64,000 nt of DNA from positions 2,847,001 through 2,911,000 of the forward strand of contig CP075895.1 in the NCBI GenBank assembly GCA_018604165.1, written 5' to 3'. The position numbers were made by a program, and so were the translations under genes. The notes below the pieces were generated by a model that searched no databases, was not told the origin of the DNA, and worked only from the letters and a program-made list of their open reading frames with translations. Of this stretch, positions 39,161 through 61,552 are shown piece by piece (position 1 is the first letter of the stretch; every line of letters begins with the position of its first letter). The DNA comes from Chitinophagaceae bacterium LGM1. GTDB lineage: Bacteria; Bacteroidota; Bacteroidia; Chitinophagales; Chitinophagaceae.

Positions 39161-39175
39161 ATGCTTATATCAATA

Positions 39176-47502: not shown

Positions 47503-47534
47503 AAAGGCTGTATAATGGTTATATGCTTAGTTGT

Positions 47535-48200
47535 TTATACGGCGGAGAAGAAAAAAAAAGCCAGTATGGTGGCTATTCCCGTTGCCGCTTCACCTACATT
47601 GTCGGGGTCTTCTTTGACAGCAGTAATGACTTCAGTGGTTTTGTCTTTCAGGGCTTTTACAAATTGATCCGTTGTAAATACCAGGCTTCGGATAGCAACA
47701 GGCGTGCTGCTCCATACATATTGTTTAAATTCAGCCATTGTAATTTTTCCATCCCTGACCTTGTTGATGGCCGGGTTCTGTTTGGCAATCAACGATGCGG
47801 GGAGTTTACGACTGGCAAACACATAGCCATCACCCCGACCCATGGCAGACGGGAAAAATGTAACGAGGTACACATCAAAATAGCTGTGCATTTTACCGCG
47901 ATAGGGTGCGAAGTATTTTTTTACCCACTCAAGCTGTTGCAGGTGATTGTATTGCAAAACCGTTTTCGGCGCGCCGGGAAAACCCGAGGCTTTTGTCCAT
48001 TGCAACAGCCCCGCAGCAATCAGCCTTCCATACTGTATATTTTCAGCACGGGCGTTCATCCTGCTTTCTGCATACATGACCTGCATCAGCCAGTTAGGGT
48101 TTATACCCAACCAGTCTGCGATCTCCGTTACTTTTTTTTCAAATGCCGGACGTATACCCACAGGTATGTTGGGATGGTCAATATGAATGAGTTGCGTCAT
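47535..48200 (-). CDS. Lytic transglycosylase-like protein with C-terminal membrane anchor
   Basis: This 221-residue protein has a lysozyme-like fold in residues ~15-150, with a catalytic-type glutamate in VMYAESRMNARAEN and the downstream GLLQWT motif (AAGLLQWTKASGFPG), as in SLT and phage transglycosylases. A hydrophobic C-terminal segment (TGIATILAFFFFSAV) follows and could anchor it in a membrane. There is no signal peptide. Soluble exolysins of phages are not usually tail-anchored, so a virion-internal membrane or inner-membrane location is plausible. It lies 33 bp upstream of the polyvalent gene, in the same operon as a second transglycosylase. Confidence 0.75.
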   Translation of the reverse strand: MTQLIHIDHPNIPVGIRPAFEKKVTEIADWLGINPNWLMQVMYAESRMNARAENIQYGRLIAAGLLQWTKASGFPGAPKTVLQYNHLQQLEWVKKYFAPYRGKMHSYFDVYLVTFFPSAMGRGDGYVFASRKLPASLIAKQNPAINKVRDGKITMAEFKQYVWSSTPVAIRSLVFTTDQFVKALKDKTTEVITAVKEDPDNVGEAATGIATILAFFFFSAV

Positions 48201-48216
48201 TTTTTACTATTCTTTG

Positions 48217-48789
48217 TTATATAATCACCAAACGGCTGTGTGCAGGGATAAGCCCTTTCTGCCATACGATATGTGCATATTCAACCGAGTCATTGCCGCC
48301 TTTGATAAATGATGGTCTGCGTGCGTGCACAATAATCCACTTCGGCATATGCGCTAGCCAAAAAGATTTTCGTTTCAATGAACCGAGAAAATTCAGCCGC
48401 AACAACATACCTACATATCCACCCGGCCTGACCTCTGATAAGGCTTTTTGTATAAACGCGATGGCTACACTAAATGGTGGATTAGTAAAAACGGCATCAA
48501 ATTTCCCCGGGCTCTCCCATTGCAGGTAATCTTTTTTGATAGCTGCCCTGCTATCCATGCGAATATCCAATGTGGATACAGTACAATTACCGATGGATGA
48601 TAAGTACGAAGGGTAGGGCATGGGGGTAGTGCGGTCGCCACCTGCTGAAGGATCAAGGATTTGCGCTTCAGATAAACAGAATTTCGGCTCGAGTAAACGA
48701 AATACTGCAAAAAAATCTGCCACCGTGTGCAAAGGCGTTACATAATAGTCGTTATCATTTCTGATAGCAGTACGGTTTGTAGAACTCAT
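48217..48789 (-). CDS. Small DNA adenine methyltransferase-like protein
   Basis: This 190-residue protein has ILDPSAGGD (SAM-binding loop) and VFTNPPFS (DPPY-like catalytic motif IV with NPPF) in the order of N6-adenine methyltransferases. A later stretch, LLRLNFLGSLKRKSFW, is typical of compact phage Dam-like enzymes. The N-terminus reads NDNDYYVTP, also seen in such phage methylases. It lacks a recognisable target-recognition domain. It sits between the two transglycosylase genes and could modify element DNA against restriction, complementing the giant protein. Confidence 0.75.
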   Translation of the reverse strand: MSSTNRTAIRNDNDYYVTPLHTVADFFAVFRLLEPKFCLSEAQILDPSAGGDRTTPMPYPSYLSSIGNCTVSTLDIRMDSRAAIKKDYLQWESPGKFDAVFTNPPFSVAIAFIQKALSEVRPGGYVGMLLRLNFLGSLKRKSFWLAHMPKWIIVHARRPSFIKGGNDSVEYAHIVWQKGLIPAHSRLVII

Positions 48790-48804
48790 CTTCTAATAGT
48801 TGAT

Positions 48805-49524
48805 TCAGACCAGCCTGTATTTGTTGTTAAATAATAAATCAAAAGCACCTCCCTGTCCGCAGAATTTCAGGATATGTCTGCTAGTCTCCCGTTTTTTCGA
48901 TACGGATAGCCTTGACTGATGTATCATATTTACCAGGCTGTCTGTATCTGCAACCGGTATTTTATAAAATGAATGGTTAGGGCCTGTATTATACGCACTC
49001 ATAATTTTATCCAGTCTTACAACGTCCCCGTCAATAAACTTGGGATGCTGACAGAGAAACTGTAAATACAATGACCCCATCAACACATTGAATTCCGCAC
49101 CTTTTGCTGTAGCTGATTTAGCAAGTGCAAAAGCTGCATCAGGCTGTACTTTGCCACCCTTACCGAAAGCCGGAAAAGATTGCTGAATTATGGGTATGGC
49201 TTTGGCAATGATTGCCGCCGGTGCAGCCCATTTTTTTCCGTCTGCATACATAGTACCTTGCAGGTAATCCAGGCAGGCAGCCACTGTCATTTTTCCTACC
49301 TGCATCAAGCCGACATAGGATGTATTGGTTGTCTTTTGGTTACCGCCGCTTTCTACAGCAGCTTTGGCAACTAATAAGGCCAGCGGCAATCCAGTAACAT
49401 CAGCCGCCTGTATGAAATAAGGCAGCCAGTTGTTTTTGATACGCCCAAAGAAACGTACCATATCCGTTTGAGTGAACGGGTTAGGCAAATGAATGGAAGG
49501 AAAAGATTGCGTTCTTAAAATCAT
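48805..49524 (-). CDS. SLT-type lytic transglycosylase
   Basis: This 239-residue protein shows the three family motifs of lytic transglycosylases: catalytic Glu in AKAAVESGGNQ, GLMQV (YVGLMQVGKMT), and AYNTG (IMSAYNTGPNHS). These cleave the glycan strands of peptidoglycan with formation of 1,6-anhydro ends. No signal peptide is present, so it would depend on the particle, a holin or lysis for access to the wall. It follows the methylase gene by 15 bp in transcription order (methylase downstream). A virion-borne role in local wall opening during genome entry fits the neighbours. Confidence 0.82.
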   Translation of the reverse strand: MILRTQSFPSIHLPNPFTQTDMVRFFGRIKNNWLPYFIQAADVTGLPLALLVAKAAVESGGNQKTTNTSYVGLMQVGKMTVAACLDYLQGTMYADGKKWAAPAAIIAKAIPIIQQSFPAFGKGGKVQPDAAFALAKSATAKGAEFNVLMGSLYLQFLCQHPKFIDGDVVRLDKIMSAYNTGPNHSFYKIPVADTDSLVNMIHQSRLSVSKKRETSRHILKFCGQGGAFDLLFNNKYRLV

Positions 49525-49577
49525 GTTCTACAAGATGGTTGTGTTCCGACAGCCAGGCCGATAGTGCACCCACGGGC

Positions 49578-50603
49578 TTACCTGCCGCTTTTCTTTTGAG
49601 TAGGAGCGGGTTGTCTTGCTACTATAGGTTGCTGTTTTACTGGTTTTTGCCTCACGGACGTTTTAACGACCGGCTTGCGTAAAACTGCTTTCCCCGTAAT
49701 GATTTGTTTATACAGCCCTTCTGATACTTCAGACAGACCGTATCTTTTACGGATGGCAGCTAATGTGGCAGTACCGAAATAACCGGTAGCTGACACACCG
49801 ATGCGGCGTTGCAATTCTTTCACATAGATATTGCTGCTACCCATGCGCAAAGGGAAATAGCGTACCGGGCGTGCTACAGCGGGACTAACTGTTTTCATGT
49901 TTGAAACAGGCACAGGTTGTGTGACCCGCATACCCGGTTTAGATGATATGATTGGTTGATTTCGCATAGATGGTTTTTGAGTGGTCTTCAGCAGGGGTTT
50001 ATGAGCAGACTGCTTAGCGGATGGATCTGCGTATGCTTTAATACTGTGTTTGTTGCGCGCGGTATTGTCAAAACGGTTTTGTTTGGAGTTATATGCCCCG
50101 GGTCTGTATGCTACAGACATATTGCCAGGCAATGCATTGGAAGTATTGCCGGGATGATAACCTTGTTGCTTACCACTTACATATAGCGGTTCAGTATTGG
50201 TGTAGACAGTATCATCATTACTTGCTTCGCCATCCTCTTCGCTGCCGCTATTACGATAGGTATCCTGCTCTTCCGTACCATAGCCGGTATCATAAAACGC
50301 CTGTTCGTTGTTCACCGGTAAATCACGCTCTTCATCTTCCGTTATCTCTCGCAAGGCATCTGTATCACGCTCCGTATTTTTACGCTGTGGTGAGGTTGAC
50401 CGTGTATAAGATGGTGCAGGCATAGGATTAATCTGTCCCGGTGCTATTGGCTCCTTCGTTTCCAATGTTACATTACCTGCTGCCTCAGCACCAGGCGTGG
50501 CAGGTGCGGCATTTGCTTTCTTTTTCACACCTGCTATCAATAACAATACACCCGCACCGATACCCACCGGGAGCAGCCATCCGTTTTTATTTTGTTCTTT
50601 CAT
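49578..50603 (-). CDS. Membrane-anchored protein with C-terminal peptidoglycan-binding domain
   Basis: This 341-residue protein has a membrane helix at about residues 10-26 (LLPVGIGAGVLLLIAGV) followed by a basic KKK. A long low-complexity, Pro/Ser/Asn-rich spacer runs from about 30 to 245. A PG_binding_1-like domain follows at ~245-300 (FPLRMGSSNIYVKELQRRIG, TGYFGTATLAAIRKRYG), then a basic tail rich in Lys/Gln. It resembles a spike or rod tethered in a membrane and reaching for peptidoglycan. It overlaps the preceding gene by 4 bp. A paralogue with two such domains lies at 52865-53542. Confidence 0.72.
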   Translation of the reverse strand: MKEQNKNGWLLPVGIGAGVLLLIAGVKKKANAAPATPGAEAAGNVTLETKEPIAPGQINPMPAPSYTRSTSPQRKNTERDTDALREITEDEERDLPVNNEQAFYDTGYGTEEQDTYRNSGSEEDGEASNDDTVYTNTEPLYVSGKQQGYHPGNTSNALPGNMSVAYRPGAYNSKQNRFDNTARNKHSIKAYADPSAKQSAHKPLLKTTQKPSMRNQPIISSKPGMRVTQPVPVSNMKTVSPAVARPVRYFPLRMGSSNIYVKELQRRIGVSATGYFGTATLAAIRKRYGLSEVSEGLYKQIITGKAVLRKPVVKTSVRQKPVKQQPIVARQPAPTQKKSGR

Positions 50604-51235
50604 CTGTCGACCTGTATCGTTTGTGAATAATAAATATGCGCATGAGGGTTTTTGAAATACACCCGTTGCTCCAGTATTTTACGGCTGAATATCCATAGCC
50701 ATCTGCGTTTGCGCCTGCGGAATACAACCTGCGTCATGGTATCCCGACTACTGATATACAGCACCTGCCTGTCACCTGATGCGTACCCTGATACATCATA
50801 GTATGCATCCCTGTAATTAAATACCCGGAACTGCAATGTATCAAGCGGTATTGCTGGTGTCGTTATTCCTTTAGGGGCGATAGCAATACTATCCTTCAGT
50901 TGGGCAAAAATTCTTTGTTGTACACCGAAAGCCACAGTAGATGCGGATTGTACCACACGCGGCCTGATCCCTGACTGCCGGACTTCAGCAAGTATTGATG
51001 GGAATAAATTAAAAAATTCTTTTTGCCTTAGTTGCAATACCCCTGTTTGTGAAGCAATACGGCCATTAGACAGCAGGATTTTTTCCTGGCTTTGCTGTAA
51101 CAATTCCTGGTTGCGGTTCATCCGTGTTATCTCCTGCTGGAAAGAGCGTGTTTGCCATATCAGCAGTATCACGATGGTGAGTAATAGCAGGCACCATGTT
51201 ATCGGGAATTTGAAAAGGCGGAATAGTTTTATCAT
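50600..51235 (-). CDS. Single-pass membrane protein
   Basis: This 211-residue protein has an N-terminal membrane helix (FPITWCLLLLTIVILLIWQ), a short coiled-coil-like region (QEITRMNRNQELLQQSQEK), and a C-terminal beta-rich part. Near the end lies a basic cluster (FRRRKRRWLWIF). The start at 51235 places a 170-bp overlap with the upstream 132-aa gene, so one of the two may be shorter than drawn; the membrane helix here favours this start. The stop overlaps the next gene. The family is not recognised; it resembles the many one-helix proteins of this operon. Confidence 0.6.
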   Translation of the reverse strand: MIKLFRLFKFPITWCLLLLTIVILLIWQTRSFQQEITRMNRNQELLQQSQEKILLSNGRIASQTGVLQLRQKEFFNLFPSILAEVRQSGIRPRVVQSASTVAFGVQQRIFAQLKDSIAIAPKGITTPAIPLDTLQFRVFNYRDAYYDVSGYASGDRQVLYISSRDTMTQVVFRRRKRRWLWIFSRKILEQRVYFKNPHAHIYYSQTIQVDR

Positions 51236-51464
51236 TGTTTGTTTTTTGAAATGAATAGGTTGTTAAAAAAATATAGAGCATAACACCGGCTATACGTATC
51301 ATAGCTTGTTGCCGTAACGTGAATCCAAGAGCAGCAATCAATTCAAAATGCTCGTTAATCAGCAAGCTGCAACTATACAAAGCGGTCATCAACACCCATC
51401 GCCATACATAGATACGAGGGGTAGCTGCTGTGAGCCTGCGGATAAGCGGTGTATACAATTTCAT
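51066..51464 (-). CDS. Small two-helix membrane protein, possible holin-like
   Basis: This 132-residue protein has hydrophobic segments at about 20-37 and 53-70 (WVLMTALYSCSLLI and IRIAGVMLYIFLTTYSF) separated by a polar loop. A polar, proline-rich tail follows. Two-helix topology with a charged tail is compatible with a phage holin, but no family motif confirms that. The last 170 bp overlap the next gene in another frame, which is unusually long; the tail may be spurious or the downstream start later. It follows a 13-bp hairpin that separates it from the spike-like gene. Confidence 0.5.
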   Translation of the reverse strand: MKLYTPLIRRLTAATPRIYVWRWVLMTALYSCSLLINEHFELIAALGFTLRQQAMIRIAGVMLYIFLTTYSFQKTNNDKTIPPFQIPDNMVPAITHHRDTADMANTLFPAGDNTDEPQPGIVTAKPGKNPAV

Positions 51465-51479
51465 ACAATATCATTGAAA

Positions 51480-51519
51480 CAGCAGGCAGGGTAAGATTAT
51501 ATACCGACCCTGCCTGCTG
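51480..51519 (-). other. 13-bp intra-operon hairpin
   Basis: A perfect 13-bp stem CAGCAGGCAGGGT/ACCCTGCCTGCTG (51480-51492 and 51507-51519) closes a 14-nt loop between the stop of the spike-like gene (51525) and the start of the next (51464). On the minus strand the stem is followed by only three T, so it may attenuate, stabilise or process the transcript rather than end it. Confidence 0.6.
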
Positions 51520-51524
51520 AAAAA

Positions 51525-52379
51525 TTAACTCACCGGTACACCGGGCTTAAGACGATAGTCGACGATGATTTTTTCTGGGTATCCTTCGGTAAATCCGCCT
51601 GCGAGCACGATACCATTCGGTAAGCCCGCATTGTTATACCTATAATCCATCATGTGTTCCAGGCGCAGCCCGTTACGATATACTTTGATACTGGCGGTAT
51701 CAATCTGGGATATAGCGTAGCTCAGGTTCACATGGTCACCGCTGACCAGGTCACGGAATACTTCTGTTAATTCGTTTGTCTGTCCGACTGTTCCGGCAGA
51801 CTTGGGCACCCATTGGTTATTGACACTATCCCAGGCCAACACAACACCAGAGCCTTTCAGGGCTTCCTGATTAACTACATCTAATGAAACAGCCACATCT
51901 TCCAGCGCATCCAGGTTACGTGGTATACTATCCAGCAATACTTGTGACAGCGTTGCACTCAACGGGCTCTGCGGCGTACCATTGCCTGAGAATATGATTT
52001 GTTCCGTGTTTTGTGTAACGGTCGCCAGTAAGGCTGTCAGATCGACCGGATAGGTCGTTCCATCTGATTCAGTAATAATCAGACGATATACGCCGGTACT
52101 GGGATTTTCCAATCTCGCATCCGCCACGTTAATATCTGTCTGGCTGAAATTCAGTGGTGTAGATACCACCTGCTGGTTACCATCTTCGGGGGTATACTTT
52201 ACCACAAGGTGGCCGTTTACTACTTCAACCGAATTCAGCCTCGTAATGGTCTCCGTTGCTTTGACGACAGCATCAATACCTGCGTACTGCAATTCGCCAT
52301 TGCCATCAGAAAGCGGCACGTATTTATTACCCGGTGCTTTCTGGATTTGTTTGTCTAATCTGATTCTTGTTTCTGCCAT
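51525..52379 (-). CDS. Spike/fibre-like protein
   Basis: This 284-residue protein is soluble, with no signal peptide. The C-terminal part (ASIKVYRNGLRLEHMMDYRY, then GYPEKIIVDYRL) matches the strand pattern often found at the ends of phage tail-fibre and spike proteins (a 'V-x-x-NG-x-x-x...DY' module that closes with 'D-x-I-x-V-x-Y'). The N-terminal region is repetitive beta (VEVVNGHLVVKYTPEDG, STGVYRLIITESDGTTYPVD). It lies next to a second small protein with the same type of end module (52424-52810). It is likely a receptor-binding component of the particle. No tail genes accompany it. Confidence 0.6.
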   Translation of the reverse strand: MAETRIRLDKQIQKAPGNKYVPLSDGNGELQYAGIDAVVKATETITRLNSVEVVNGHLVVKYTPEDGNQQVVSTPLNFSQTDINVADARLENPSTGVYRLIITESDGTTYPVDLTALLATVTQNTEQIIFSGNGTPQSPLSATLSQVLLDSIPRNLDALEDVAVSLDVVNQEALKGSGVVLAWDSVNNQWVPKSAGTVGQTNELTEVFRDLVSGDHVNLSYAISQIDTASIKVYRNGLRLEHMMDYRYNNAGLPNGIVLAGGFTEGYPEKIIVDYRLKPGVPVS

Positions 52380-52423
52380 TGCTGAAATTGATTTTTAATT
52401 GTTATGAAAAATTGACCGGTCAC

Positions 52424-52810
52424 TTAATATGTATATATGCATTGCAGGCTATCCTGCGCGTTAAACGTGAAAGGGAACAGCAGTCTGTTACCATTCACCT
52501 GATAGTTTGTATGCAGGCTTTGTACAATGCCATTCAACATAACCATCAGCACGGGCGAAGCCGGGACGTATTGTAACAAAACAGAAGACTGACCATGCAC
52601 CTGCGCAAATGTTTCTGTATGCCAGTTCTGCGGATATATCGTTGCTCCGCTTCCGTTTATTTCACGGAAGCTGGAGAGGTTAAAAACATCCTCATGTCGC
52701 GGCAGCCATATCTCATCATTGACCGCATCACCCAGAAGGTGCAGGATTTCAAGCAGTGTAAAATCCTTGTATTGACCATTGCGTTGTGAGCGGAGTGAAA
52801 AAACAGACAT
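52424..52810 (-). CDS. Small protein with fibre-like C-terminal module
   Basis: This 128-residue protein ends with PVLMVMLNGIVQSLHTNYQV, then FPFTFNAQDSLQCIYTY: the same strand/turn plan as the end of the 284-aa spike-like protein and many phage fibre tips ('hNGhxQ...Y.h...h.F...D.h...Y'). The N-terminal half (MSVFSLRSQRNGQYKDFTLLE) is not recognised. It is separated by 44 bp from the spike-like gene and 54 bp from the peptidoglycan-binding membrane gene. It may be a second receptor-binding tip or a connector between spike and capsid. Confidence 0.55.
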   Translation of the reverse strand: MSVFSLRSQRNGQYKDFTLLEILHLLGDAVNDEIWLPRHEDVFNLSSFREINGSGATIYPQNWHTETFAQVHGQSSVLLQYVPASPVLMVMLNGIVQSLHTNYQVNGNRLLFPFTFNAQDSLQCIYTY

Positions 52811-52864
52811 CTTTTTATTATTTATCCTGCGTATTGTTTGTCAAATGAGCGTATGGTATAGGCG

Positions 52865-53542
52865 TCAGTATTGGGTCGTTGGTTTTTTTTGTAAGTACTT
52901 ATTGAGGCTTGCCGTACTTATCCATGCACGCCCTGTTTTTTTCAATAAGGCGGTTTCTGTATGTGTCCCGAAATCACTATCTGCTATCGGCTCGCCTCTT
53001 TTGGCAATACGCTTGTCTTTAAAGCCCAACCATTGCTGCAACCGGTATACATCCTTTCCCTTGCTCCCTTTCTTTAATACCGTGGTTGTAACGGTGTGGC
53101 TAACAGGCGAAACAAAAGGCTTTTGTCCTGGTTGCATGATGTTACGGTACTGTACTTCGCTCACTGTACTGATACGATATTGTCTGATAAGTGCCGCTTC
53201 CGTCCCATTGCCGAAAATGCCGTCAGCCGTTATACCTAATTTTTGCTGTATAGCTTTTATCCGCTGCCCCCTCATACCTTTACGAAGCGGAAAAGATTCA
53301 TTTACATTAGTCGCAGGTACTTGCGCTGCTGCACTGGCTGTCTGCCTGGCTGGGGGTACCATAGTGGTATCATCAACGATAACTGCTTCCTTGACAGGTG
53401 GCTGCACCACCATAGCAGCCGCCACACGTTTTGGCTGCAACAGGTATTGCAAACCGAAATAAGCAGCAGCAGCATAGACGATATACAGTACCGTATTATC
53501 TTTTTTTTCTGCTGCTTTTTCTTCAGTTATGATCGTATCCAA
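52865..53542 (-). CDS. Membrane protein with two peptidoglycan-binding domains
   Basis: This 225-residue protein has a membrane helix at about 18-35 (VLYIVYAAAAYFGLQYLL). Two PG_binding_1-type repeats follow: PLRKGMRGQRIKAIQQKLG...DGIFGNGTEAAL at ~87-130, and LKKGSKGKDVYRLQQWLG...DSDFGTHTETAL at ~150-205. The first also has the 'GxxVxxLQxxLG' pattern. Two such domains on a membrane anchor suggest a link between a membrane and the murein layer. It is related in plan to the 341-aa protein at 49578-50603. Confidence 0.75.
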   Translation of the reverse strand: MDTIITEEKAAEKKDNTVLYIVYAAAAYFGLQYLLQPKRVAAAMVVQPPVKEAVIVDDTTMVPPARQTASAAAQVPATNVNESFPLRKGMRGQRIKAIQQKLGITADGIFGNGTEAALIRQYRISTVSEVQYRNIMQPGQKPFVSPVSHTVTTTVLKKGSKGKDVYRLQQWLGFKDKRIAKRGEPIADSDFGTHTETALLKKTGRAWISTASLNKYLQKKPTTQY

Positions 53543-53584
53543 TCCTTAGTATTTTAAATGCGGTTTGTTTTTGTAACTATATAT

Positions 53585-54121
53585 TTATATAAACCGTATC
53601 GCTACCCCTTTGCGGGCATAGTTTTTATTAATGGATTGCTTCTGCCCCGTATTCAGGTTGGACACAATCGTTTGTATCAGGTCTTTGGGGCCTCCATCCG
53701 GCAAGATGCCGAACCAGGTCTCCTGCCGCCTTCCATAGTATTTGTATAGTAGGGCAAAGTCTGCATCATTGCCTACATAAGTCATGCAATACCTGGCATC
53801 TTCATGCGCATCACCAACTGCACTATATTGTGTATCCCTGTAAATGCGCTCCGCCAGTTGCGCCCAAAAACCTGCCGGCCTTGTAGGCTTCTGTTTCTTC
53901 GGCACTTCATTGACATAGCGTTCAATAGCTTCCTGTGATTGCTTTTCACTTCTGACCTGCTCGTCCGATTTCTTCAACTGCAAAGCCTGTGCTATTTCAT
54001 CGGCTGTCTGACCCGCACCCTTGATTATTTTTGATGCGAGGTAAACCGCTCCACCCGCCAGCAATATCATCGGCAGATTTTGAAGCAACTGTTCTTGTAG
54101 TTTAGAACCACTTCCCTGCAT
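53585..54121 (-). CDS. Membrane-anchored protein of the cassette
   Basis: This 178-residue protein has a hydrophobic helix near the N-terminus (LPMILLAGGAVYLASKIIKG, ~14-33) followed by a charged helical linker (ALQLKKSDEQVRSEKQSQEAI). The C-terminal globular part contains RFIYRDTQYS-like strands and a DFALLYKYYGRRQETWF segment; no enzyme motif was recognised. Glycine/alanine-rich short helices followed by basic residues recur in this operon and are typical of proteins of an internal viral membrane. It ends 42 bp before the start of the gene with two peptidoglycan-binding domains. Confidence 0.6.
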   Translation of the reverse strand: MQGSGSKLQEQLLQNLPMILLAGGAVYLASKIIKGAGQTADEIAQALQLKKSDEQVRSEKQSQEAIERYVNEVPKKQKPTRPAGFWAQLAERIYRDTQYSAVGDAHEDARYCMTYVGNDADFALLYKYYGRRQETWFGILPDGGPKDLIQTIVSNLNTGQKQSINKNYARKGVAIRFI

Positions 54122-54337: not shown

Positions 54338-55187
54338 TATTTGCTGTTATTTGGTTAAGTATTTGCTGAATGAGTGTTTTGTCTTTTTGTATTTCCACAA
54401 AAAGCAGGTAGAGGGTAGCTATTTCCTGCTGGCTCAGCTCTTCAGCCATATAGTCCCGCAGCATCCCTATCATCTGCTCCCGCTCATCTTTCGGCTCCTG
54501 TGCAGGTTCGTTCGTGAGGCTTGTTGCAGTACCCAACGCGGGTGCTGCTGCCGCCTCTTTCTCTTCTGTTCCTGCCAGCATACTGAGTATACCTGCACCA
54601 CCGAAAAATTTGGATATACCAGGCAAAGCCATACCGAGGATACGCATATAACTCTCTGTTGTTTCCTTGGCAGCAATGTCATGCTTCAGGTCAGCGTTGC
54701 GTGTCTCCAGTTCGGCAATCTGGTGTTGCATTTTCTGGTTTTCTTCCCGCAGCCGTTCATATTCTTCCCGTTGGCGCATTTCGGTCAGCCGCTTCTCCAC
54801 CAGGTTATTGACGTCCGCTTCACCCAACCCCTGAAAACCCGATTGCGGCGAGGGTATTTGTATCATGCGAACGGACGGTTCATCCTCACGTAGTAACTTA
54901 CCAACCGCAAACGTGTGCTCAAAGAGTTTTTCACTTGTCTCACTATTATGCCAGGTGACGGTAATACTGTCCGGCTGGCATACTTGGTAACGCCCGCAGA
55001 TAACCGTTGTAAAAGCTGTCAAAGATGTTTTATCCTTGCTCTCTGCAATCTTTTTACCCAGCTTATTGTACACAGCTGTAAAGGCAATCTGCTTATCGGA
55101 TAGGTTTTTCTCTCCTTTGAGCATTTTGACTACTTCACGGTTTTTATCAAAGAGCGCGCGCAGTTCCGGGAAATCACTTTGTGCCAT
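54282..55187 (-). CDS. Coiled-coil protein with central hydrophobic segment
   Basis: This 301-residue protein has an N-terminal mixed domain (~1-110). A heptad-rich coiled coil follows at ~130-190 (TEMRQREEYERLREENQKMQ and HQIAELETRNADLKHDI). Next comes a weakly hydrophobic glycine-rich segment (LGMALPGISKFFGGAGILSM, ~200-220) and a charged C-terminal helix. The arrangement resembles structural scaffolds or injection-tube proteins that dip into a membrane, but no family is recognised. It overlaps the 71-aa gene by 56 bp. Confidence 0.6.
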   Translation of the reverse strand: MAQSDFPELRALFDKNREVVKMLKGEKNLSDKQIAFTAVYNKLGKKIAESKDKTSLTAFTTVICGRYQVCQPDSITVTWHNSETSEKLFEHTFAVGKLLREDEPSVRMIQIPSPQSGFQGLGEADVNNLVEKRLTEMRQREEYERLREENQKMQHQIAELETRNADLKHDIAAKETTESYMRILGMALPGISKFFGGAGILSMLAGTEEKEAAAAPALGTATSLTNEPAQEPKDEREQMIGMLRDYMAEELSQQEIATLYLLFVEIQKDKTLIQQILNQITANNEITHTEYKNDNKATTTS

Positions 55188-55216
55188 GCTGTTGTTCTTA
55201 TTCGTTGAATTGTGTT

Positions 55217-55561
55217 TTATTTAACCAGTACCTGATAAAACAATGCCTGGCAGACATTACCTGTAAAAGATGCCGGTAACTCTATTTTTATCTTTCCGCT
55301 GAACTCCTCCATCGTATCATTGGTATGGGTTTCCAGCAAGGTAACATGCGTGTCACTGGTAATACGTGTTCCGACAGGCAGTTCATAGGCATTGACTAAA
55401 TACCAATATTGATTATATGCATCAAACTCCATGCTGTTGACCAGCACTTGCCCGTTATTGTCAGCAATACGTCGCACCACAACAGGCAACATCCTGGCAT
55501 ATGTAATTTCCATCCCTCTGCGCCGCATCTGCCGCTCTGCATAATCTTCTATATTAATCAT
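55217..55561 (-). CDS. Small beta-rich structural candidate
   Basis: This 114-residue protein has an N-terminal helix (DYAERQMRRRGMEITYARML) and then beta strands ending in SGKIKIELPASFTGNVCQALFYQVLVK. It overlaps the start of the capsid-like protein gene C (55554-55985) by 8 bp. The strand pattern and position fit a minor capsid or penton-like component, though it does not share the PN...EG-Y landmarks of its neighbours. No family is recognised. Confidence 0.55.
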   Translation of the reverse strand: MINIEDYAERQMRRRGMEITYARMLPVVVRRIADNNGQVLVNSMEFDAYNQYWYLVNAYELPVGTRITSDTHVTLLETHTNDTMEEFSGKIKIELPASFTGNVCQALFYQVLVK

Positions 55562-55985
55562 CCGATAAGGCTTTGAGGTAAATAGTTACGATGTAATTAC
55601 TCCACTTGTCCGTTATTGTCCCGTCTGCACGCTGGTAATCGGTTCCTGTAAAAACTTTATTTTCATAATGGCCGCTCAGCAGGCTACCGGGTATAATATC
55701 TATCTCTGTGTCCAGGTAGGCATCACTGGCTTCTGCACGGTTGTCAAAAGAGACATCTACATGACCCATGTGATAACTCCGGTTATTAAATTCCAGCGAC
55801 AGGTAACCGATTGCAGGCAGGTACGTATCCGCACTCATTAAATGCACACCCACTGAATGCACGACTTTCACACCCACCACACGGCGAATATGCCCTGGCA
55901 AGACCGTATAGATGTTCACCGGCGTTAGCGGCTGGCGAACTATCAATTGTATCGGATGGTGTATGACCCTTGTGCTGCCTGTCAT
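55554..55985 (-). CDS. Capsid-like beta-rich protein C
   Basis: This 143-residue protein is soluble and almost all beta. It shares landmarks with the neighbouring 154-aa and 195-aa proteins: a 'V-x-G-V-x-V' strand (VVGVKVVHS) where they have KGI-x-V/L-S; IGYLSLEFNNR matching GATLGFRLNN and GSTFGFRVN; LLSGHYEN matching SIEGRYTD and LEGIYTD; and a closing strand YIVTIYLK matching YDVVINIWL. It overlaps the 195-aa gene by one base. The shared order of landmarks suggests remote paralogy. A single jelly-roll capsid-type fold is the leading guess (inference). Confidence 0.55.
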   Translation of the reverse strand: MTGSTRVIHHPIQLIVRQPLTPVNIYTVLPGHIRRVVGVKVVHSVGVHLMSADTYLPAIGYLSLEFNNRSYHMGHVDVSFDNRAEASDAYLDTEIDIIPGSLLSGHYENKVFTGTDYQRADGTITDKWSNYIVTIYLKALSDD

Positions 55986-56572
55986 TATTTTGATAAATAC
56001 ATGGTTATTCTTACATCATAGGGATAATATACCTGTACAGGATTGGAAGGATCTGGTGACCCTGCTGCTCCACCGCTACTCAACCCGCCTCCGCCAGTGA
56101 ACACCCCGGTATTATCCGAAATCAAAATGGCATCCGCTATGACAGGGCTGTATGAAACAATGTCTTTACCCGACACAAATGTTTTCTTTATATTCACTTC
56201 TGCGGGTGGTATGACACCACCACCTGGGCTGTAACTGGTATTGCCCAGTAAAGCCTGTAACGCACTATCGGTATATATACCTTCCAGCTTGGAAGCCTGT
56301 AACGGGACAGGGGCTTCAAAGAACATCATACGCTGATTAGGCGGCACGTCATTACCGAATACCAGCAGGTGCGCTTCATGACTCTCATCCAGTATTTTTT
56401 TCTCGTTTACCCGAAAACCAAATGTGCTGCCAAACAATGCACTTTCATACCCTATCGACAATGCGATACCTTTCAGCAACGTATAGTCTTTATGGCTTTC
56501 TGCATTGAAGTATACACGCTGCCCCTTGTGGCTGATACGCAGGCTTACCTGTTGATACCTGAATCCCCTCAT
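55985..56572 (-). CDS. Capsid-like beta-rich protein B
   Basis: This 195-residue protein is clearly related to the 154-aa protein just upstream. LRISHKGQRVYFNAES matches LRVSGAGETIRFNAVC; KGIALSI matches KGIFVSL; GSTFGFRVNEKKILDESHEA matches GATLGFRLNNVEVLDDGHEV; PNQRMMFFEAP matches PNSKFFLFPEK; LEGIYTD matches IEGRYTD; and YPYDVRITMYL matches FPYDVVINIWL. A glycine/serine-rich insertion (GGGGLSSGGAAGS) near the end is specific to this copy. No signal or membrane segment is present. Tandem related capsid proteins are common in tailless icosahedral viruses. Confidence 0.65.
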   Translation of the reverse strand: MRGFRYQQVSLRISHKGQRVYFNAESHKDYTLLKGIALSIGYESALFGSTFGFRVNEKKILDESHEAHLLVFGNDVPPNQRMMFFEAPVPLQASKLEGIYTDSALQALLGNTSYSPGGGVIPPAEVNIKKTFVSGKDIVSYSPVIADAILISDNTGVFTGGGGLSSGGAAGSPDPSNPVQVYYPYDVRITMYLSK

Positions 56573-56582
56573 CGTTGCATCT

Positions 56583-57047
56583 TTAATCGTTCGTAAGCCA
56601 GATATTGATGACTACATCATAAGGAAATACAACACCGAAAGGATTGGTTGTGTACCCGGCAAGGGTTTTGAAATTGACTTTGCCCGGGTCGTAGACACCA
56701 CTATCCTCTCCGTTATCCACCAGTAAAGGATATTTACTACCGTCTGTATAACGTCCTTCAATACTGCCGCCGGCTGCTTCTATTTTTTCGGGAAACAGAA
56801 AAAACTTGCTGTTAGGTGCTACGCTATTATTTGCAGTGAGGTTTTTCACCTCATGCCCGTCATCCAATACTTCCACATTATTTAACCTGAAACCCAGGGT
56901 TGCACCCTGTACAGCTTTGTCCTGCGGAAGCGATACAAAAATACCTTTGATGTTGCGAAAACCACGGTCGCAAACGGCATTGAAACGAATGGTTTCCCCT
57001 GCACCTGATACCCGCAGGCGAATACGATGAAATTTATTATTCTTCAC
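56583..57047 (-). CDS. Capsid-like beta-rich protein A
   Basis: This is a 154-residue all-beta protein with no signal or membrane segment. It aligns across its length with the 195-aa protein downstream (see the landmarks listed there) and, more loosely, with the 236-aa protein upstream: APNSKFFLFP with IPNTSLEVFN, and SIEGRYTD with LVEGTYVLD. It lies 10 bp upstream of the 195-aa gene and 23 bp downstream of the 236-aa gene. Size, beta content and tandem paralogy fit a single jelly-roll capsid or penton-base protein; the fold is not demonstrated. Confidence 0.65.
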   Translation of the reverse strand: MKNNKFHRIRLRVSGAGETIRFNAVCDRGFRNIKGIFVSLPQDKAVQGATLGFRLNNVEVLDDGHEVKNLTANNSVAPNSKFFLFPEKIEAAGGSIEGRYTDGSKYPLLVDNGEDSGVYDPGKVNFKTLAGYTTNPFGVVFPYDVVINIWLTND

Positions 57048-57070
57048 TGGCTGGCGATGTGTGATAAACC

Positions 57071-57781
57071 CTATGCTTTTACAACAGTTGTTCCGATAAG
57101 TACTACTTTCAGATAAGCGTTCTGCGGCGCGTTAGTTCCCCATTCCAGGTTAAACTCAATGGTTTGCTGGTCACGTATCAACTTCGGATTATCCAATACA
57201 TAAGTGCCTTCTACGAGTTTGTTATTCCCTTTGGTATTGAATACTTCCAATGAAGTATTGGGAATAAGCACTGCACCATTGGCTTTAAATTCAAACTCAC
57301 CGTTACGGATGAAATCAGGCGTGATAGAGAAGTTAACATTGAGTGGCGAACCCGCCCCCTGATCGGAAACACCATACATCAGGCGGATGGCATGTAATAA
57401 AAAGAAAGCCCCTTTCTCCAGTTTCGCTGAACTGATATTGGTGTAGCCCACTGTTTTATTATCATCATCGCGAAGCATTTTTACCACTTTGCTGTTGGTA
57501 ATGTCTTTTACCGCATAATAGCTTATATCAACTGATTGCAACGATTTGCTGGCCAGACCTTTCTGAATATCACGCGGCAATAAATTGATGCGGCTTTCAA
57601 AATCACCCCGGCTGCCGCGTGCATTTTTCCCTGCACCTTGTTTGGCTATCTCTTTAGTCTTCCTGAAAAAACGGGCTTTTTCTTCTGCCGGTGCCTGCTC
57701 TACCGCACCGAGAAATTCTGCTTCATTCATTGCACCGAGCAGGTTGTACTCACTCTCGTTGATTTGACCTAATGTAAACAT
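57071..57781 (-). CDS. Candidate major capsid protein (236 aa, beta-rich)
   Basis: The N-terminal ~60 residues of this 236-residue protein are helical and charged (FLGAVEQAPAEEKARFFRKT), followed by a basic GKNARGSRGDFESRIN stretch. The remaining ~170 residues form a beta domain with GEFEFKANGAVLIPNTSLEV, KLVEGTYVLDN and the closing strand NAYLKVVLIGTTV. The beta domain shares PNT/S...F and EG-x-Y landmarks with the next three genes. It heads this group, is the largest of the four and has no membrane segment, as expected for a coat protein. I do not recognise a named capsid family; the call is inference from context. Confidence 0.5.
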   Translation of the reverse strand: MFTLGQINESEYNLLGAMNEAEFLGAVEQAPAEEKARFFRKTKEIAKQGAGKNARGSRGDFESRINLLPRDIQKGLASKSLQSVDISYYAVKDITNSKVVKMLRDDDNKTVGYTNISSAKLEKGAFFLLHAIRLMYGVSDQGAGSPLNVNFSITPDFIRNGEFEFKANGAVLIPNTSLEVFNTKGNNKLVEGTYVLDNPKLIRDQQTIEFNLEWGTNAPQNAYLKVVLIGTTVVKA

Positions 57782-57886
57782 GTTATCTTGTTTTATGCTT
57801 GTTTATATCCCTTTCCAGGCACAAGCGGTTAATAATGATTGTATTGTTACCGTAAAATGCAGTAAGGCATCAGCGTTGATAAACCC

Positions 57887-58516
57887 TTATAAAATTTCTA
57901 TATCGTCCTGACCGTATAGCTGGTCATGGTATGCTTCTGCCTCGCCTTGCAATGTTTCTTCTTCATTACCATATAAGGGTTCATCGGCACCACGCATATA
58001 ATTGACTTGTTGCGGATACACGCTCTCAGGCTCACCCATATAGGCAGGTGCATCTATATAATATCCTGATTGCCCGGCTGGCGGCTGCACATCACCGAGG
58101 TCGGGAAAGCCCATGCCTGATATGGGTGTCCGCTCATGGTATAGCCAGCGGTCATTGTTGGATACGGCTGCAACGGGTGTCAAACCTAATCCGTCACCGG
58201 CAAGGAAAGTAGCAGTCGGCATCAGTGTTTTGGCTGTTTTGTATGCACCCGCAATCGCTGCACCCTGAAGGATATTCTTCAGCATGGGTTGTTCCACTTT
58301 GGTAGCACCATACATAGCTCCCGCAGATACCGCTAGCGGCGGTAACATTTTTTTAAGCCCCTTTTGTGATGCATCCGCGGGGTCAATTTTAAGCATTTTG
58401 TTAGCCATGTTGATCGCCAGGTTGCCGATAACAAAACCGGCAACATTTTCAATCATGGGCTGTACCTGCTTCAGCACATCCTTCACGCCTGGTTTTGCAG
58501 TTGATGTATTTACCAT
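57887..58516 (-). CDS. Glycine/alanine-rich membrane protein
   Basis: The first half of this 209-residue protein is a series of small-residue helices (VAGFVIGNLAINMANKMLK, LPPLAVSAGAMYGATKVEQ, ILQGAAIAGAYKTAKTLMP), typical of proteins embedded in or lining a membrane. The second half is acidic and polar, with PPAGQSGYYIDAPAYMGEPE and an acidic tail. There is a 105-bp gap before the candidate capsid gene and 31 bp to the transglutaminase-like gene upstream. It resembles internal-membrane proteins of PRD1/PM2-type viruses in composition, not in recognisable sequence. Confidence 0.6.
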   Translation of the reverse strand: MVNTSTAKPGVKDVLKQVQPMIENVAGFVIGNLAINMANKMLKIDPADASQKGLKKMLPPLAVSAGAMYGATKVEQPMLKNILQGAAIAGAYKTAKTLMPTATFLAGDGLGLTPVAAVSNNDRWLYHERTPISGMGFPDLGDVQPPAGQSGYYIDAPAYMGEPESVYPQQVNYMRGADEPLYGNEEETLQGEAEAYHDQLYGQDDIEIL

Positions 58517-58547
58517 TGTACTTGTATTTATTGGGTTAAGAAATTAT

Positions 58548-60485
58548 TTATGCCAGTTGAAATATCTTTGTATGGGTCAACGGATGCCTGCTGCTAACTC
58601 CTTCGATATGGCCGCTTAACGGCCTGTTGACGGAAGGTGTTTCTCTTGCTGCCTTATCGGTATCGCTATCCAGTAATTTGTATACACCATATGCCAGTGC
58701 ACCTCCTAATGCAATACCCAGTATGGGATTGTTTTGTGCAAATTTGACCGCACCCGTAGCGATGTTGCCCAAACCATCTATGGCATCTTCTCCTGTTACC
58801 TCATCTGTGTTATCCGGATAAATCTGCCCTGTTACAACTGCATCATCGGGTTCATTAAAAACTACACCGTCATCTTCGGTTGCTTCCCCTTCTGTAGCAG
58901 ATATATCAATGGCTTCATCTTTTTTTACCAACCCGGTTTCACGCATGATACTTACTACCGCGGTAATCAGTGGTGTGGCAGAAGCTACGGCTGCTGCTAC
59001 CGGCACTGCACCTAATGCACCTAAGCCATTTAGCCTTCCCTGCCTGCTACTCAGTATCGCTTTTCGCAGGTTATCTTTCTTGCCGCCAACTTTTTCAAAC
59101 AGTCTTTCGACTTTTACAAGGGCTTTTTTCGTGCGCTCAATGACTGCCGGATTAATCCCTTTAGCCCTTGCCTGCTCCGGTGTAGCATATGCCCATTTCA
59201 ACCTGCTGGACATTTTACCGACATTCAGTTTCAATGCCAGCAGAAAACCGTTACGCGCTGCAATCGTTGCGGGGTTAAACCGCACCAAGCCCTTGCCTGT
59301 TTTTTTTAATCCCTGTCCGACTTTTTTGAAAAACGCTTTCTTTTTGGCTTTGGGCTGACGTGCCTGTTTTTTTTGAGTCCGCTGTTTTTGAGTCCGCTTC
59401 ACCCGACCCAGGTATATATCATTGTCCTCACCGGCGAGTATATCATCATCACCGTATAATTCATCATCACTCAACACCCCATCCAGGTTACCGAAGCCAT
59501 TCAACTGATCCAGTAATGCTTCATTGGCCATCAATTGTCCCAGTGCCTGCTCCCGCTTATCGGTAAACCAATATTGGATAGCATAATCCAGCATTTTTAG
59601 CAGTTCTTCGTGGTTATAACCTGCAACAAAAGAAGTAACCGGGTTTTCTGCAATGGCTTGCCTGGTAGCCAGCAGATAACGGTAAAGACCCTGCTCCAGT
59701 GCAGGGTCTCTTACCAACCCCTGTAAATATGTTTCGCCATCCAGGATACCCAACCCTTGTAAATCCACGCCGAATAGGGCTGCATGTAGTGCCGTATTAT
59801 TAGCAGCAGCAAGCTGCATTGCGTTCATTACTATTCTGCCGGTATCGTTTGCGGATGGCGAATGATTTTCTACGCCGCTTAATACAGCGATTTTTATTCC
59901 GTTTAAACTCATGGTATAATCCATCTTTTGCATAAAGGGCTTTTCATAGTTAAATTGCCCGAGCACGGCATCAACCGTATAATATGTTGCGCTGTCCGCT
60001 ATGGGTACAATTACATAGATATGCTGCCAGTGCGGCTGCGAATACCTTGTTATACGAAAACGATGTGGTATGCCAAGGTTACATAAAAGGGACGAACAGA
60101 AAATAGAGAAGCAATCACAGTCAATGCCTGTCAGGCGGTCATGCCATGCCCTTGCAGGACGGCGTAACTCTTCCAAACCCTGCGCATCCAGTTTATACTG
60201 GATATTATAATATAGAAACTCCCAAATATTTCGCAGGGTATCTTCCAAACGGCCTGCTTTCAATTTCTCCGCTATGGCTTTTGTATCATTGATATATTTC
60301 CAGACAACTGCTTCAATGACTTTCAACGTATCCTCGACTTCACCATTATCCATGACGATGGTATCCCTTACGTCAGCACCGCTGAACAGATGGTTGTATT
60401 GCGCACCATCGGTTCGCAATACGCGCTGCCCACTGCTGATTTCCGGGTCAGGATGATAATCCCTGTCAAAAATTTTCATCGTCAT
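58548..60485 (-). CDS. Transglutaminase-like protein with basic linker and membrane helices
   Basis: This 645-residue protein has a transglutaminase-like cysteine-peptidase fold at ~85-185: catalytic-type C123 in GIDCDCFSIF, H155 in HWQHIYVIV and D172 in TVDAVLG, with GIPHRFR in the expected place. A helical region follows (~230-350), then a strongly basic tract at ~370-400 (TQKQRTQKKQARQPKAKKKA). Two hydrophobic segments lie near the end (VPVAAAVASATPLITAVVSI, ILGIALGGALAYGVYKLL). It overlaps the LEA-like gene by 4 bp. It could crosslink or process particle proteins, or bind DNA through its basic tract while sitting in a membrane. The reaction is not known. Confidence 0.75.
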   Translation of the reverse strand: MTMKIFDRDYHPDPEISSGQRVLRTDGAQYNHLFSGADVRDTIVMDNGEVEDTLKVIEAVVWKYINDTKAIAEKLKAGRLEDTLRNIWEFLYYNIQYKLDAQGLEELRRPARAWHDRLTGIDCDCFSIFCSSLLCNLGIPHRFRITRYSQPHWQHIYVIVPIADSATYYTVDAVLGQFNYEKPFMQKMDYTMSLNGIKIAVLSGVENHSPSANDTGRIVMNAMQLAAANNTALHAALFGVDLQGLGILDGETYLQGLVRDPALEQGLYRYLLATRQAIAENPVTSFVAGYNHEELLKMLDYAIQYWFTDKREQALGQLMANEALLDQLNGFGNLDGVLSDDELYGDDDILAGEDNDIYLGRVKRTQKQRTQKKQARQPKAKKKAFFKKVGQGLKKTGKGLVRFNPATIAARNGFLLALKLNVGKMSSRLKWAYATPEQARAKGINPAVIERTKKALVKVERLFEKVGGKKDNLRKAILSSRQGRLNGLGALGAVPVAAAVASATPLITAVVSIMRETGLVKKDEAIDISATEGEATEDDGVVFNEPDDAVVTGQIYPDNTDEVTGEDAIDGLGNIATGAVKFAQNNPILGIALGGALAYGVYKLLDSDTDKAARETPSVNRPLSGHIEGVSSRHPLTHTKIFQLA

Positions 60486-61012
60486 GTATTAATAATCGTT
60501 TTCGGTGTTTCAACGGTCATGCCATCCGCTTGCATAATAACTGACATCGCAATAGGTTGAGTGAAAGATTGTAGCAACCCTTTGGTGCCACCCTTACTGA
60601 ACAGGTTGATGATGCCTGTAATATTTTTAATGCCCATAAGCGGCAATATGGTATTCCAGCTAAGCGGTAGTGTGAGCTCTCCAACTTCGCTCTGGCTGTT
60701 TCTGCCTATAGGAAAGCTTCGGTTACTGGCCGGGCTTTCCGCTATCATACCTCCTTTTGTGTTCCACAAACGGACAACCGGGTTGATAATAGTCACAGAT
60801 ACGGAAGATGGATTGTTTACTTTCGCTGTCGCGGCAATCTCTATCCCTGATAAATTCACCTTGTGAATGCGCACCTTCGACAAGGACACAGACACATTGG
60901 CTGCCAGCTTGTTAAGTTGTAACAAACGGACGGCTATTGCCGCAGCACCGATACCCAATCCAATTTTTAGCACGTTGTGCATTTGCTTATCGCTTCTTCC
61001 TGCATTTGACAA
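60482..61012 (-). CDS. Membrane-anchored LEA14/WHy-like beta-sandwich protein
   Basis: This 176-residue protein has an N-terminal hydrophobic helix (IGLGIGAAAIAVRLLQL). A domain follows whose strand sequence, KVRIHKVNLSGIEIAATAKV, NPSSVSVTIINPVVRLWN and EVGELTLPLSW, fits the LEA_2 (WHy) beta-sandwich, with the usual 'V-x-N-P' after the second strand. The N-terminus overlaps the 81-aa gene by 26 bp. Such a protein on a membrane could line the inside of an enveloped particle; the role is inferred. Confidence 0.7.
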   Translation of the reverse strand: MSNAGRSDKQMHNVLKIGLGIGAAAIAVRLLQLNKLAANVSVSLSKVRIHKVNLSGIEIAATAKVNNPSSVSVTIINPVVRLWNTKGGMIAESPASNRSFPIGRNSQSEVGELTLPLSWNTILPLMGIKNITGIINLFSKGGTKGLLQSFTQPIAMSVIMQADGMTVETPKTIINT

Positions 61013-61232
61013 ACAGATAATCCAACCCTTTCTTTGTGCAGTAACCTACCACGGCACTTATAAATGCATAAGCAACAACTGCCATGCTGCCGTCTATTGT
61101 TAAACTGTTAAGTAATAGCTTAGGCATAGCTTGCGCTTTATATACACCACCTATTGTACCGGATGCTACCGTCCATAGCGTAGTCACTTCTCCCCCCGGC
61201 CATTCATTGTTATTTTGAGATTGATAATCCAT
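60987..61232 (-). CDS. Small membrane protein, first gene of the long operon
   Basis: This 81-residue protein has two moderately hydrophobic stretches (LWTVASGTIGGVY and MAVVAYAFISAVVGYCT) and a strongly basic C-terminus (KCRKKR). It is the first gene of the ~22-kb minus-strand operon and starts 69 bp downstream of the five-copy 10-bp operator array at 61301-61350. Topology and the basic tail would suit a holin or a virion membrane protein, but no family is recognised. Confidence 0.6.
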   Translation of the reverse strand: MDYQSQNNNEWPGGEVTTLWTVASGTIGGVYKAQAMPKLLLNSLTIDGSMAVVAYAFISAVVGYCTKKGLDYLFVKCRKKR

Positions 61233-61300
61233 CTTTTATAATGCGGCACGGCATGTATTGTCCGTGGTAATGCAAAGATTACAACAGGTTTATAGCCGGC

Positions 61301-61350: not shown

Positions 61351-61452
61351 CTGTGCTTATTGCAGTTCATGGATTCCTGAATAGGATTTTTATTGTAGAA
61401 ATAAAACGGATACATTAATTTACATCCTTTCATAGTGATAGGGTTTATAGGG

Positions 61453-61479: not shown

Positions 61480-61552
61480 ATTGCAGGTTATGTAAGTAAA
61501 AATCTGCGTTTGTATGTTCCTGTTTTATGTTGTAATATTTTGCAGGGATTGT

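Follow-up and report, generated by a model that had tools for sequence, protein, structure and literature searches.

A probable temperate, tailless virus integrated in the genome of Chitinophagaceae bacterium LGM1

Tailless viruses with jelly-roll coat proteins are already known. According to PMC8812541, PRD1, PM2, Bam35 and their relatives have a double jelly-roll coat protein and, in most cases, a packaging ATPase; the Helvetiavirae/Singelaviria (SH1, HHIV-2, HCIV-1 and P23-77) combine a duplicated coat gene with an FtsK-HerA ATPase; and SPV1 and FLiP are reported without a packaging ATPase, representing early states. Double jelly-roll viruses that have no packaging ATPase have small genomes (PMC5894146), and in marine Vibrio the filamentous and tailless prophages stay below 16 kb (PMC11630473). 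Here, a stretch of 64,000 nucleotides from Chitinophagaceae bacterium LGM1 (contig CP075895.1; G000:C1:2847001-2911000, hereafter the window, from a genome of 3.32 Mb in one contig) is described, in which an integrated element begins at position 4,287; it extends beyond the window to coordinate 64,570.

One gene module of this element is, with a probability of roughly 70%, an operon for morphogenesis and lysis that belongs to a temperate, tailless and probably membrane-containing double-stranded DNA virus. The computed basis consists of a site-specific insertion, a conserved module, a capsid-like predicted fold and selection. The element has the look of a tailless virus lying dormant, without a match of its kind in the searches made; its predicted coat protein recalls in shape those of lipid-containing viruses of archaea and of PRD1-type viruses, and many environmental Bacteroidota have relatives of it. 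There is a real chance that it is a novelty of higher rank. The original prediction, made from the sequence, had proposed an internal-membrane virus that is PRD1/PM2-like in its logic. The jelly-roll coat candidate, which that prediction had not singled out and which is the main new evidence, the conserved module with lysis enzymes and the site-specific integration support the tailless part of that proposal, whereas the likeness to PRD1 and PM2 does not extend to the coat, which is a double jelly-roll there and a single sandwich in the model here.

Integration site and extent of the element

An alignment of both ends with an empty site in the congener IBVUCB1 sets the span of the element at 60,284 bp; 4287..64000 lie in the window (no strand assigned) and the rest continues to 64,570. 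The region to which the original prediction was confined, 47,535-61,232, is only part of it. On the left of the empty site, positions 12295-12405 of the IBVUCB1 stretch L133 match window 4163-4272 (74% over 112 bases), and from position 12419 onward L133 matches the sequence from 64571 onward (88% over 464). IBVUCB1 has its own copy of the element at tRNA-Val, and its counterpart of the window site carries none.

The left attachment core is GTGGAG at 4,287 and the right one GTGGAA at 64,571 (L003:571), with GTGGA common to both when left end, right end and empty site are aligned. The inner arms, CCGTAGA and TCTACGG, form an inverted repeat around the core, as is expected for serine integrases. 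A large serine recombinase of 531 amino acids is encoded on the plus strand at 63050..64000 and ends outside the window at 64,645 (Pfam Resolvase 1e-23, Recombinase 3.2e-9). The combination of recombinase, empty site and attachment core agrees with the site-specific integration of temperate viruses in general. We take the insertion site to be the 3' end of ssrA, going by its T-arm; ARAGORN made no such call, with no gene called in the window, L003 or L005, and no RNA family reached its gathering score in the window. The insertion-site stretch is conserved, with a strong match in 7 of 9 other genomes of the genus, and a related element in one genome (G312, L018) crosses the same right border.

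A left end at the Rhs-like gene cluster, near 16 kb, was considered and rejected, since the primase and regulators further left lie in DNA that is 85% identical in IBVUCB1; the empty site, which places the end at 4,287, also rules it out. Similarity to IBVUCB1 takes in the recombinase, the structural module, the polyvalent gene, the ATPase, patches of the Rhs-like cluster, the primase and the regulators. About 400 bp at the left end (window 4286-4684) resemble a stretch of L005 that lies 9.1-9.5 kb to the left of the window, as well as stretches of IBVUCB1, one of them 12 kb to the left of the empty site; these lookalikes are perhaps scars or ends of other insertions. The element of the window measures 60.3 kb, related units in genome G304 are 48-54 kb apart, the plasmid pPP10 of Persicobacter psychrovividus has 53.2 kb, and the IBVUCB1 element would have about 64 kb, provided that its left repeats mark its putative end. 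The idea that a constant genome size points to headful packaging was dropped after the ends had been set.

The structural and lysis module

The candidate major capsid protein is encoded on the minus strand at 57071..57781. Its 236-residue model has a helical N-terminus and a single eight-strand sandwich, and the best matches of this predicted fold are vertical jelly-roll capsid proteins, the nearest being that of SPV1 (Portogloboviridae), with 10% identity in the structural alignment. Ten of 50 structure matches are rows of the non-viral HDT and PHM, five more are other viral proteins, and the FLiP penton is among the Foldseek matches (1.3e-3). Sequence homology to SPV1 was not found: the sole match to PDB sequences at E values up to 10 was a four-helix bundle (0.61). 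No double jelly-roll coat was seen, with one sandwich in this model and one other module protein modelled. The protein of 154 amino acids at 56583..57047 (minus strand; AlphaFold pLDDT 82.6) is also jelly-roll-like, with mixed PDB rows (PHM 8.7, HHIV-2 8.2, SPV1 7.7), and is a candidate penton or minor capsid protein. A paralogue of 195 amino acids, from the same profile family, is encoded at 55985..56572 (minus strand). Two tandem coat paralogues occur at locus L028 (10007-11376) and at L142 (2715-4186), and at L025 (11286-12089) the small jelly-roll protein takes the form of a 267-residue double.

When an alignment of five coat sequences was used as the query against 84,980 species genomes, 150 relatives were found among 213 pattern matches. 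The best 80 of these 150, together with two contigs from a virus collection, make up 82 loci. The coat and small jelly-roll genes are present in all 82, the transglutaminase-like gene in 80, the coiled-coil gene in 78 and the LEA-like gene in 74. In 71 loci the set is complete and runs LEA, transglutaminase, coat, jelly-roll, coiled coil. Of the 11 loci without at least one of the five genes, nine were judged to lack it because the contig stops there; L065 is a borderline case, and the frames of L060 are broken. All 23 genes compared with the nearest relative have open frames and a dN/dS below 0.43. This, and the order kept in 71 of 82 loci, indicate that the module is more than a chance grouping.

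The 80 named records are nearly all Bacteroidota (Chitinophagales, Cytophagales, Flavobacteriales and Bacteroidales); a few are labelled merely 'bacterium', and one metagenome-assembled genome assigned to Saccharospirillaceae (L039) probably reflects faulty binning. Cultured environmental strains with a match include Taibaiella soli, Puia dinghuensis, Longitalea luteola and Chitinophaga eiseniae. Prevalence is low: a draw spread evenly over the phylum had the coat gene in 3 of 395 Bacteroidota genomes, or 3 of 296 by single protein, the host's own genome being included each time. A coat tree (87 rows, those below 180 amino acids dropped), used solely to show where relatives occur, has very long branches for L095 and L006.

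Neither the coat nor the transglutaminase-like protein has a match among 50,697 phage records. Among the virus-collection contigs, the window coat protein alone found no relative and the alignment found two; with the transglutaminase-like family as query there were seven, including two known already. Six of the seven carry the coat gene, and the other (L138) stops 135 bp past the transglutaminase-like open reading frame (ORF). The two plasmid records that match the coat are both from Persicobacter. The circular plasmid pPP10 (53,207 bp, typed non-mobilizable) has the coat, small jelly-roll, coiled-coil, transglutaminase-like, polyvalent and ATPase genes, and its module adjoins replication and ParA/ParB genes. 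On a second Persicobacter replicon of 1.07 Mb, a coat homologue lies at NZ_AP025293.1 421313-421756 with no annotated feature beneath. Several related elements with differing cargo stand in a row in G304 (CP058703.1, L100-L107), at the spacing given above; the coat frame of one copy is broken. Genes for a GTA_holin_3TM protein (5.1e-12), for an HTH_3 regulator and for a tyrosine recombinase are present in one G304 element. No terminal repeat was found in G306. No description of the module was recognised among the literature matches listed, and PMC12629997 has no bearing on it.

Hallmarks of other systems were sought with Pfam in 45 element proteins, the recombinase included, and with PHROGs in 29 proteins, including 19 of the 21 module genes (without those at 54,122 and 55,217). 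The operon had been described as free of tail, portal, terminase and conjugation genes, and this holds at the profile level: no terminase, portal, capsid, relaxase, type IV secretion or other conjugation or secretion family lies above the Pfam cut-off. The gene set of a tailed phage (large terminase, portal, HK97 coat and tail genes) was found by neither search, and that of a conjugative element (relaxase, type IV secretion ATPases) was not found by Pfam. Suggestive names occur below the Pfam threshold (Phage_lysozyme2 'tail lysozyme', E 0.073; GspH 'type II transport', E 0.037) and among PHROG matches with E of at least 0.004, where four genes are named head maturation protease, minor coat, internal virion and virion structural protein; a tail fiber match stands at 0.23. 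The sole strong tail-labelled PHROG match is phrog_196 'baseplate hub', on a lytic enzyme (47,535-48,200), and covers only profile positions 384-523 of 536. 'Head and packaging' names are those of the four genes just mentioned and one on the peptidoglycan-binding region (endolysin, 5.2e-6). No FtsK/HerA/A32-type family was found by Pfam, and no FtsK-HerA packaging ATPase by Pfam or PHROG, by which a very divergent motor could be missed; the gap noted originally is real in this sense, and the conserved ATPase is RadA-like. Tail genes were not seen by eye in the stretches fetched of the seven virus-collection contigs.

The Portogloboviridae, in the form of SPV1, give the nearest fold match to the coat candidate, which may be a single vertical jelly-roll too; such a fold match cannot settle membership. 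The element agrees with SPV1 in that no packaging ATPase family was found by Pfam in 45 element proteins (a very divergent motor could be missed). SPV1 has an archaeal host and a genome of 20 kb, whereas the elements described here have bacterial hosts, about 48-64 kb, an integrase and lysis enzymes, and coat identity is only 10%. In contrast to the Helvetiavirae, one coat gene is the rule here (the tandem cases being L028 and L142), and the second jelly-roll-like protein has mixed PDB rows. The element is not filed under helvetiaviruses because no FtsK/HerA ATPase was found; the genomes of Simuloviridae, at 16-19 kb, are also smaller than the 48-64 kb seen here. The single sandwich of the model keeps it out of the PRD1/PM2-type families. 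FLiP (Finnlakeviridae) shares the Bacteroidota hosts, a penton found by Foldseek and the lack of a packaging ATPase, but has single-stranded DNA, a double jelly-roll coat and related contigs of up to 17 kb (PMC5894146). The Charybdis elements are likewise mobile, with predicted capsid-like proteins and no hallmark genes, but are marine, about 4.6 kb long and found in an archaeal host, and have a double Greek key (PMC12324425). The element probably works like a tailless membrane phage.

The original prediction counted about twenty consecutive minus-strand genes, and the ORF list has 21, from 61,232 down to 47,535. Its count of at least seven genes with membrane helices is fair but threshold-dependent. 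In a Kyte-Doolittle scan (threshold 1.6), a 19-residue window finds a helix-like segment in 6 of the 21, and a 17-residue window adds three genes (53,585-54,121, 52,424-52,810 and 48,805-49,524), with 52,865-53,542 and 51,066-51,464 just under the threshold; the segments in 52,424-52,810, a fibre candidate, and in 48,805-49,524, an enzyme, are doubted. Above the Pfam cut-off, the module has only DUF6549 (4.3e-37) and SLT (5.5e-7), with peptidoglycan-binding, transglutaminase and methylase matches below it. The PHROG matches are to endolysin, methyltransferase, virion structural and baseplate-hub families, the last on the lytic enzyme.

The first module gene (all are on the minus strand) encodes a small membrane protein (60987..61232; helix 44-62; a weak match, 0.0077, to phrog_10143 minor coat protein). 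It is followed by two core genes, for a LEA-like protein with an N-terminal helix (60482..61012; in 79 of 88 sources; LEA_2 match of a relative 0.057, below cut-off) and a transglutaminase-like membrane protein (58548..60485; DUF553 0.0017, below cut-off; helix 496-514; 86 of 88). A glycine-rich hydrophobic protein (57887..58516; weak hydrophobic segment; profile relatives in 13 of 88 sources) is a probable membrane component, and loci L011-L013 have genes of similar size at its position. Past the jelly-roll genes lie a 143-residue protein (55554..55985; profile relatives in 12 of 88 sources), whose place in the module suggests a minor capsid role, core proteins of 71, 301 (coiled coil) and 114 amino acids (54122..55561; in 78, 84 and 82 of 88 sources), and a protein with one N-terminal helix, 17-33 in the 17-residue scan (53585..54121).

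The two proteins originally called peptidoglycan-binding both fall under the Pfam cut-off of 23 bits: the membrane-protein candidate at 52865..53542 narrowly (PG_binding_1 1.2e-4, 22.6 bits; phrog_2649 endolysin 3.6e-7; homologues in 72 of 88 sources), and the membrane-anchored, peptidoglycan-binding-like protein at 49578..50603 more widely (PG_binding_1 0.043, 14.4 bits; helix 8-26). Of two presumed fibres, that at 51525..52379 gains support as a fibre or receptor-binding candidate from phrog_15100 (virion structural protein, 7.9e-5), and that at 52424..52810 gains none, with weak PHROG matches only. Likewise, one of two presumed lytic transglycosylases is clear (48805..49524; SLT 5.5e-7, 29.6 bits against a cut-off of 21.3); the other (47535..48200; C-terminal membrane helix 202-220) stays below the Pfam cut-off (SLT 0.0084, 16.1 bits) and is matched as a lytic enzyme by phrog_196 (1.7e-17). 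The DUF6549 protein (50600..51235; PF20186 4.3e-37; phrog_14010, of unknown function, 5.9e-19) has one N-terminal helix and may be spanin-like; a protein with two hydrophobic segments slightly below threshold (51066..51464) is a holin candidate; and a DNA methyltransferase-like protein lies at 48217..48789 (phrog_799 2.4e-42). The murein enzymes near the peptidoglycan-binding gene vary between elements: the window has SLT, G306 an amidase and a glucosaminidase, and G049 GH108.

Replication, regulation and cargo genes

Beyond the module, the minus strand encodes a polyvalent protein of 2159 amino acids (41023..47502; Pfam RadC 6.6e-36, AAA_34 6.2e-23, Helicase_C_4 3.5e-19, MutS_I 1.3e-6), composed of RadC, MutS_I and strawberry-notch helicase parts and a methylase part read by eye. 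Its gene is present in 12 of 12 chosen genomes or records, though in G303 and G304 at a distance of 31-42 kb. It adjoins, in all 9 regions compared, the core gene for a RadA/Sms-like P-loop ATPase (39176..41002, minus strand; 608 amino acids; PDB sequence match to RadA 2.5e-4; phrog_6891 3.5e-28). No FtsK or HerA chain was among the PDB matches listed for the ATPase profile. The N-terminal half of this ATPase seems, by eye, to carry a repeated segment.

A primase/helicase-like protein of 770 amino acids (13394..15706, plus strand; DUF5906 5.6e-18; phrog_1156 DNA primase 5e-9), 91.5% identical in IBVUCB1, probably acts in replication. An HTH_3 regulator (12156..12623, minus strand; Pfam 1.8e-8; 85% identical in IBVUCB1) is a possible repressor. 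The interval 12798..13318 (plus strand) encodes an HTH_26 (Cro/C1) regulator of 81 amino acids (Pfam 9.8e-7) and a conserved protein of 91 amino acids without a Pfam match, 91% and 85% identical in IBVUCB1. Near the module, a small DUF4248 protein (62008..62214, minus strand; Pfam 1.3e-9) may be regulator-like. Its gene is flanked by two oppositely oriented clusters of GCATCA repeats with a 10-bp period, at 61301..61346 (minus) and 62454..62499 (plus), each with 4 of the 10 matches in the window; shuffles gave an expectation of 0.45 for the window, and 8 of 10 matches fall in the clusters. The repeats may be an operator or iterons. Together with the DUF4248 protein and the two HTH regulators, they are candidate switch elements.

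Near the left end, 4718..8383 (no strand assigned) encodes, as cargo, two SMODS nucleotidyltransferases (Pfam 4e-27 and 1.8e-10), an S_4TM effector (1.7e-79) and an unmatched protein of 307 amino acids, none with a match in the IBVUCB1 stretch compared. Judging from these families, the SMODS/S_4TM set (4718-7304) would be a defence set inside the element resembling the cyclic-oligonucleotide-based antiphage signalling system (CBASS). Two large genes (8516..12151, plus strand; 626 and 584 amino acids), with no Pfam match at E 0.01 and none in the IBVUCB1 stretch compared, are probably cargo. The same probably holds for a cluster of giant proteins at 15746..38046 (minus strand; 3184, 2080, 939, 380, 236, 233, 205 and 168 amino acids), which we take, from reading the translations by eye, to be Rhs/YD-repeat-like; Pfam gave no Rhs match there, only an OmpH-like one (1e-10). 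This cluster is more diverged in IBVUCB1, its DNA being partly 63-75% identical.

Alternative explanations and a possible infection cycle

Could the module serve a non-viral integrative element that has an apparatus of its own for moving DNA across the envelope, in a novel form of conjugation, with the jelly-roll proteins as a surface structure? The many membrane and peptidoglycan-binding-like proteins and the few relatives in virus collections would fit. So would the polyvalent protein: proteins of this type are described for phages and for conjugative elements in PMC5512222, where phages account for up to 35% of those collected and another context, taken here, from title and text, as the conjugative one, for up to 40%, the highest share. 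This explanation is nevertheless improbable: no relaxase, coupling protein or VirB4-type ATPase was found by Pfam in 45 element proteins, pPP10 is typed non-mobilizable, the predicted fold is capsid-like, and relatives have a holin and interchangeable endolysins. We give an equally low rating to a gene-transfer agent or a capsid-forming satellite, whose particles would carry host DNA or need a helper. The GTA_holin_3TM family holin of a relative and a replication set in which only the primase/helicase-like protein was seen speak for it; against it, the module is accompanied by the recombinase, the attachment sites and the primase, and circular pPP10 has its own replication and ParA/ParB genes.

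That the element is a decayed or domesticated prophage, no longer making particles, is very unlikely. One G304 copy does have a broken coat frame and much of the element is non-structural cargo, but all 23 compared genes are open, with dN/dS below 0.43, and closely similar copies occupy different sites (tRNA-Val in IBVUCB1, another in the window). Least credible is a tail and host-penetration cassette of a tailed phage with head genes elsewhere, for which the 'baseplate hub' and sub-threshold tail-fiber matches could be cited, since the former is confined to one part of its profile, no tape measure, sheath, portal or terminase was found by Pfam or PHROG, and, by eye, no tail genes were seen in the stretches fetched of six virus-collection contigs that bear the module.

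If the element is a tailless virus, its cycle may be pictured as follows. On induction, the recombinase would excise the element, the primase would start replication, and the structural operon would be expressed. The protein at 57,071-57,781 would form an icosahedral lattice, and the two jelly-roll proteins of 154 and 195 residues would be its pentons or belong to the minor capsid proteins. Coat and small jelly-roll proteins would assemble around a membrane patch holding the LEA-like, transglutaminase-like and peptidoglycan-binding proteins; these membrane proteins and the glycine-rich one would build a lipid-lined vertex. DNA and polyvalent protein would enter the particle, and the holin, endolysin and spanin-like DUF6549 protein would lyse the cell and release the progeny. 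In a new infection, fibres would bind the host, the vertex would pierce the envelope by means of its murein enzymes, which open the wall, and the RadC/helicase polyvalent protein would enter with the DNA and protect it.

Packaging is the weak point of this reading. No conserved candidate for a motor was seen other than the RadA-like ATPase, and the absence of a packaging ATPase is surprising at about 48-64 kb; either the RadA-like protein does the work, or the DNA condenses while the particle assembles, or a motor escaped the searches.

It is tempting to go one step further, and to regard these elements as SPV1-like viruses with a single vertical jelly-roll, the first such lineage in bacteria: temperate, of about 48-64 kb, and without an FtsK/HerA motor. 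Their genome would be packaged by an ATPase of the RadA/Sms family, their virion would deliver a polyvalent protein of 2,159 residues, and they would spread defence islands among Bacteroidota. This is a tentative proposal that we consider rather doubtful. If it were true, the occasional tandem coat paralogues would let one see, in lineages alive today, the duplication from which the two-coat helvetiaviruses are proposed to have arisen. Should the elements be tailless viruses, as the main reading has it, a group present in at least 150 public-genome loci, nearly all from Bacteroidota among the 80 fetched, would have been overlooked for want of any protein match in the phage records searched. 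Such a group would connect the viruses of bacteria with the single jelly-roll realm and offer a test bed for the packaging of about 50-60 kb without a known motor. It would also be a vehicle for CBASS-like and other cargo. Several of the hosts are cultured isolates.

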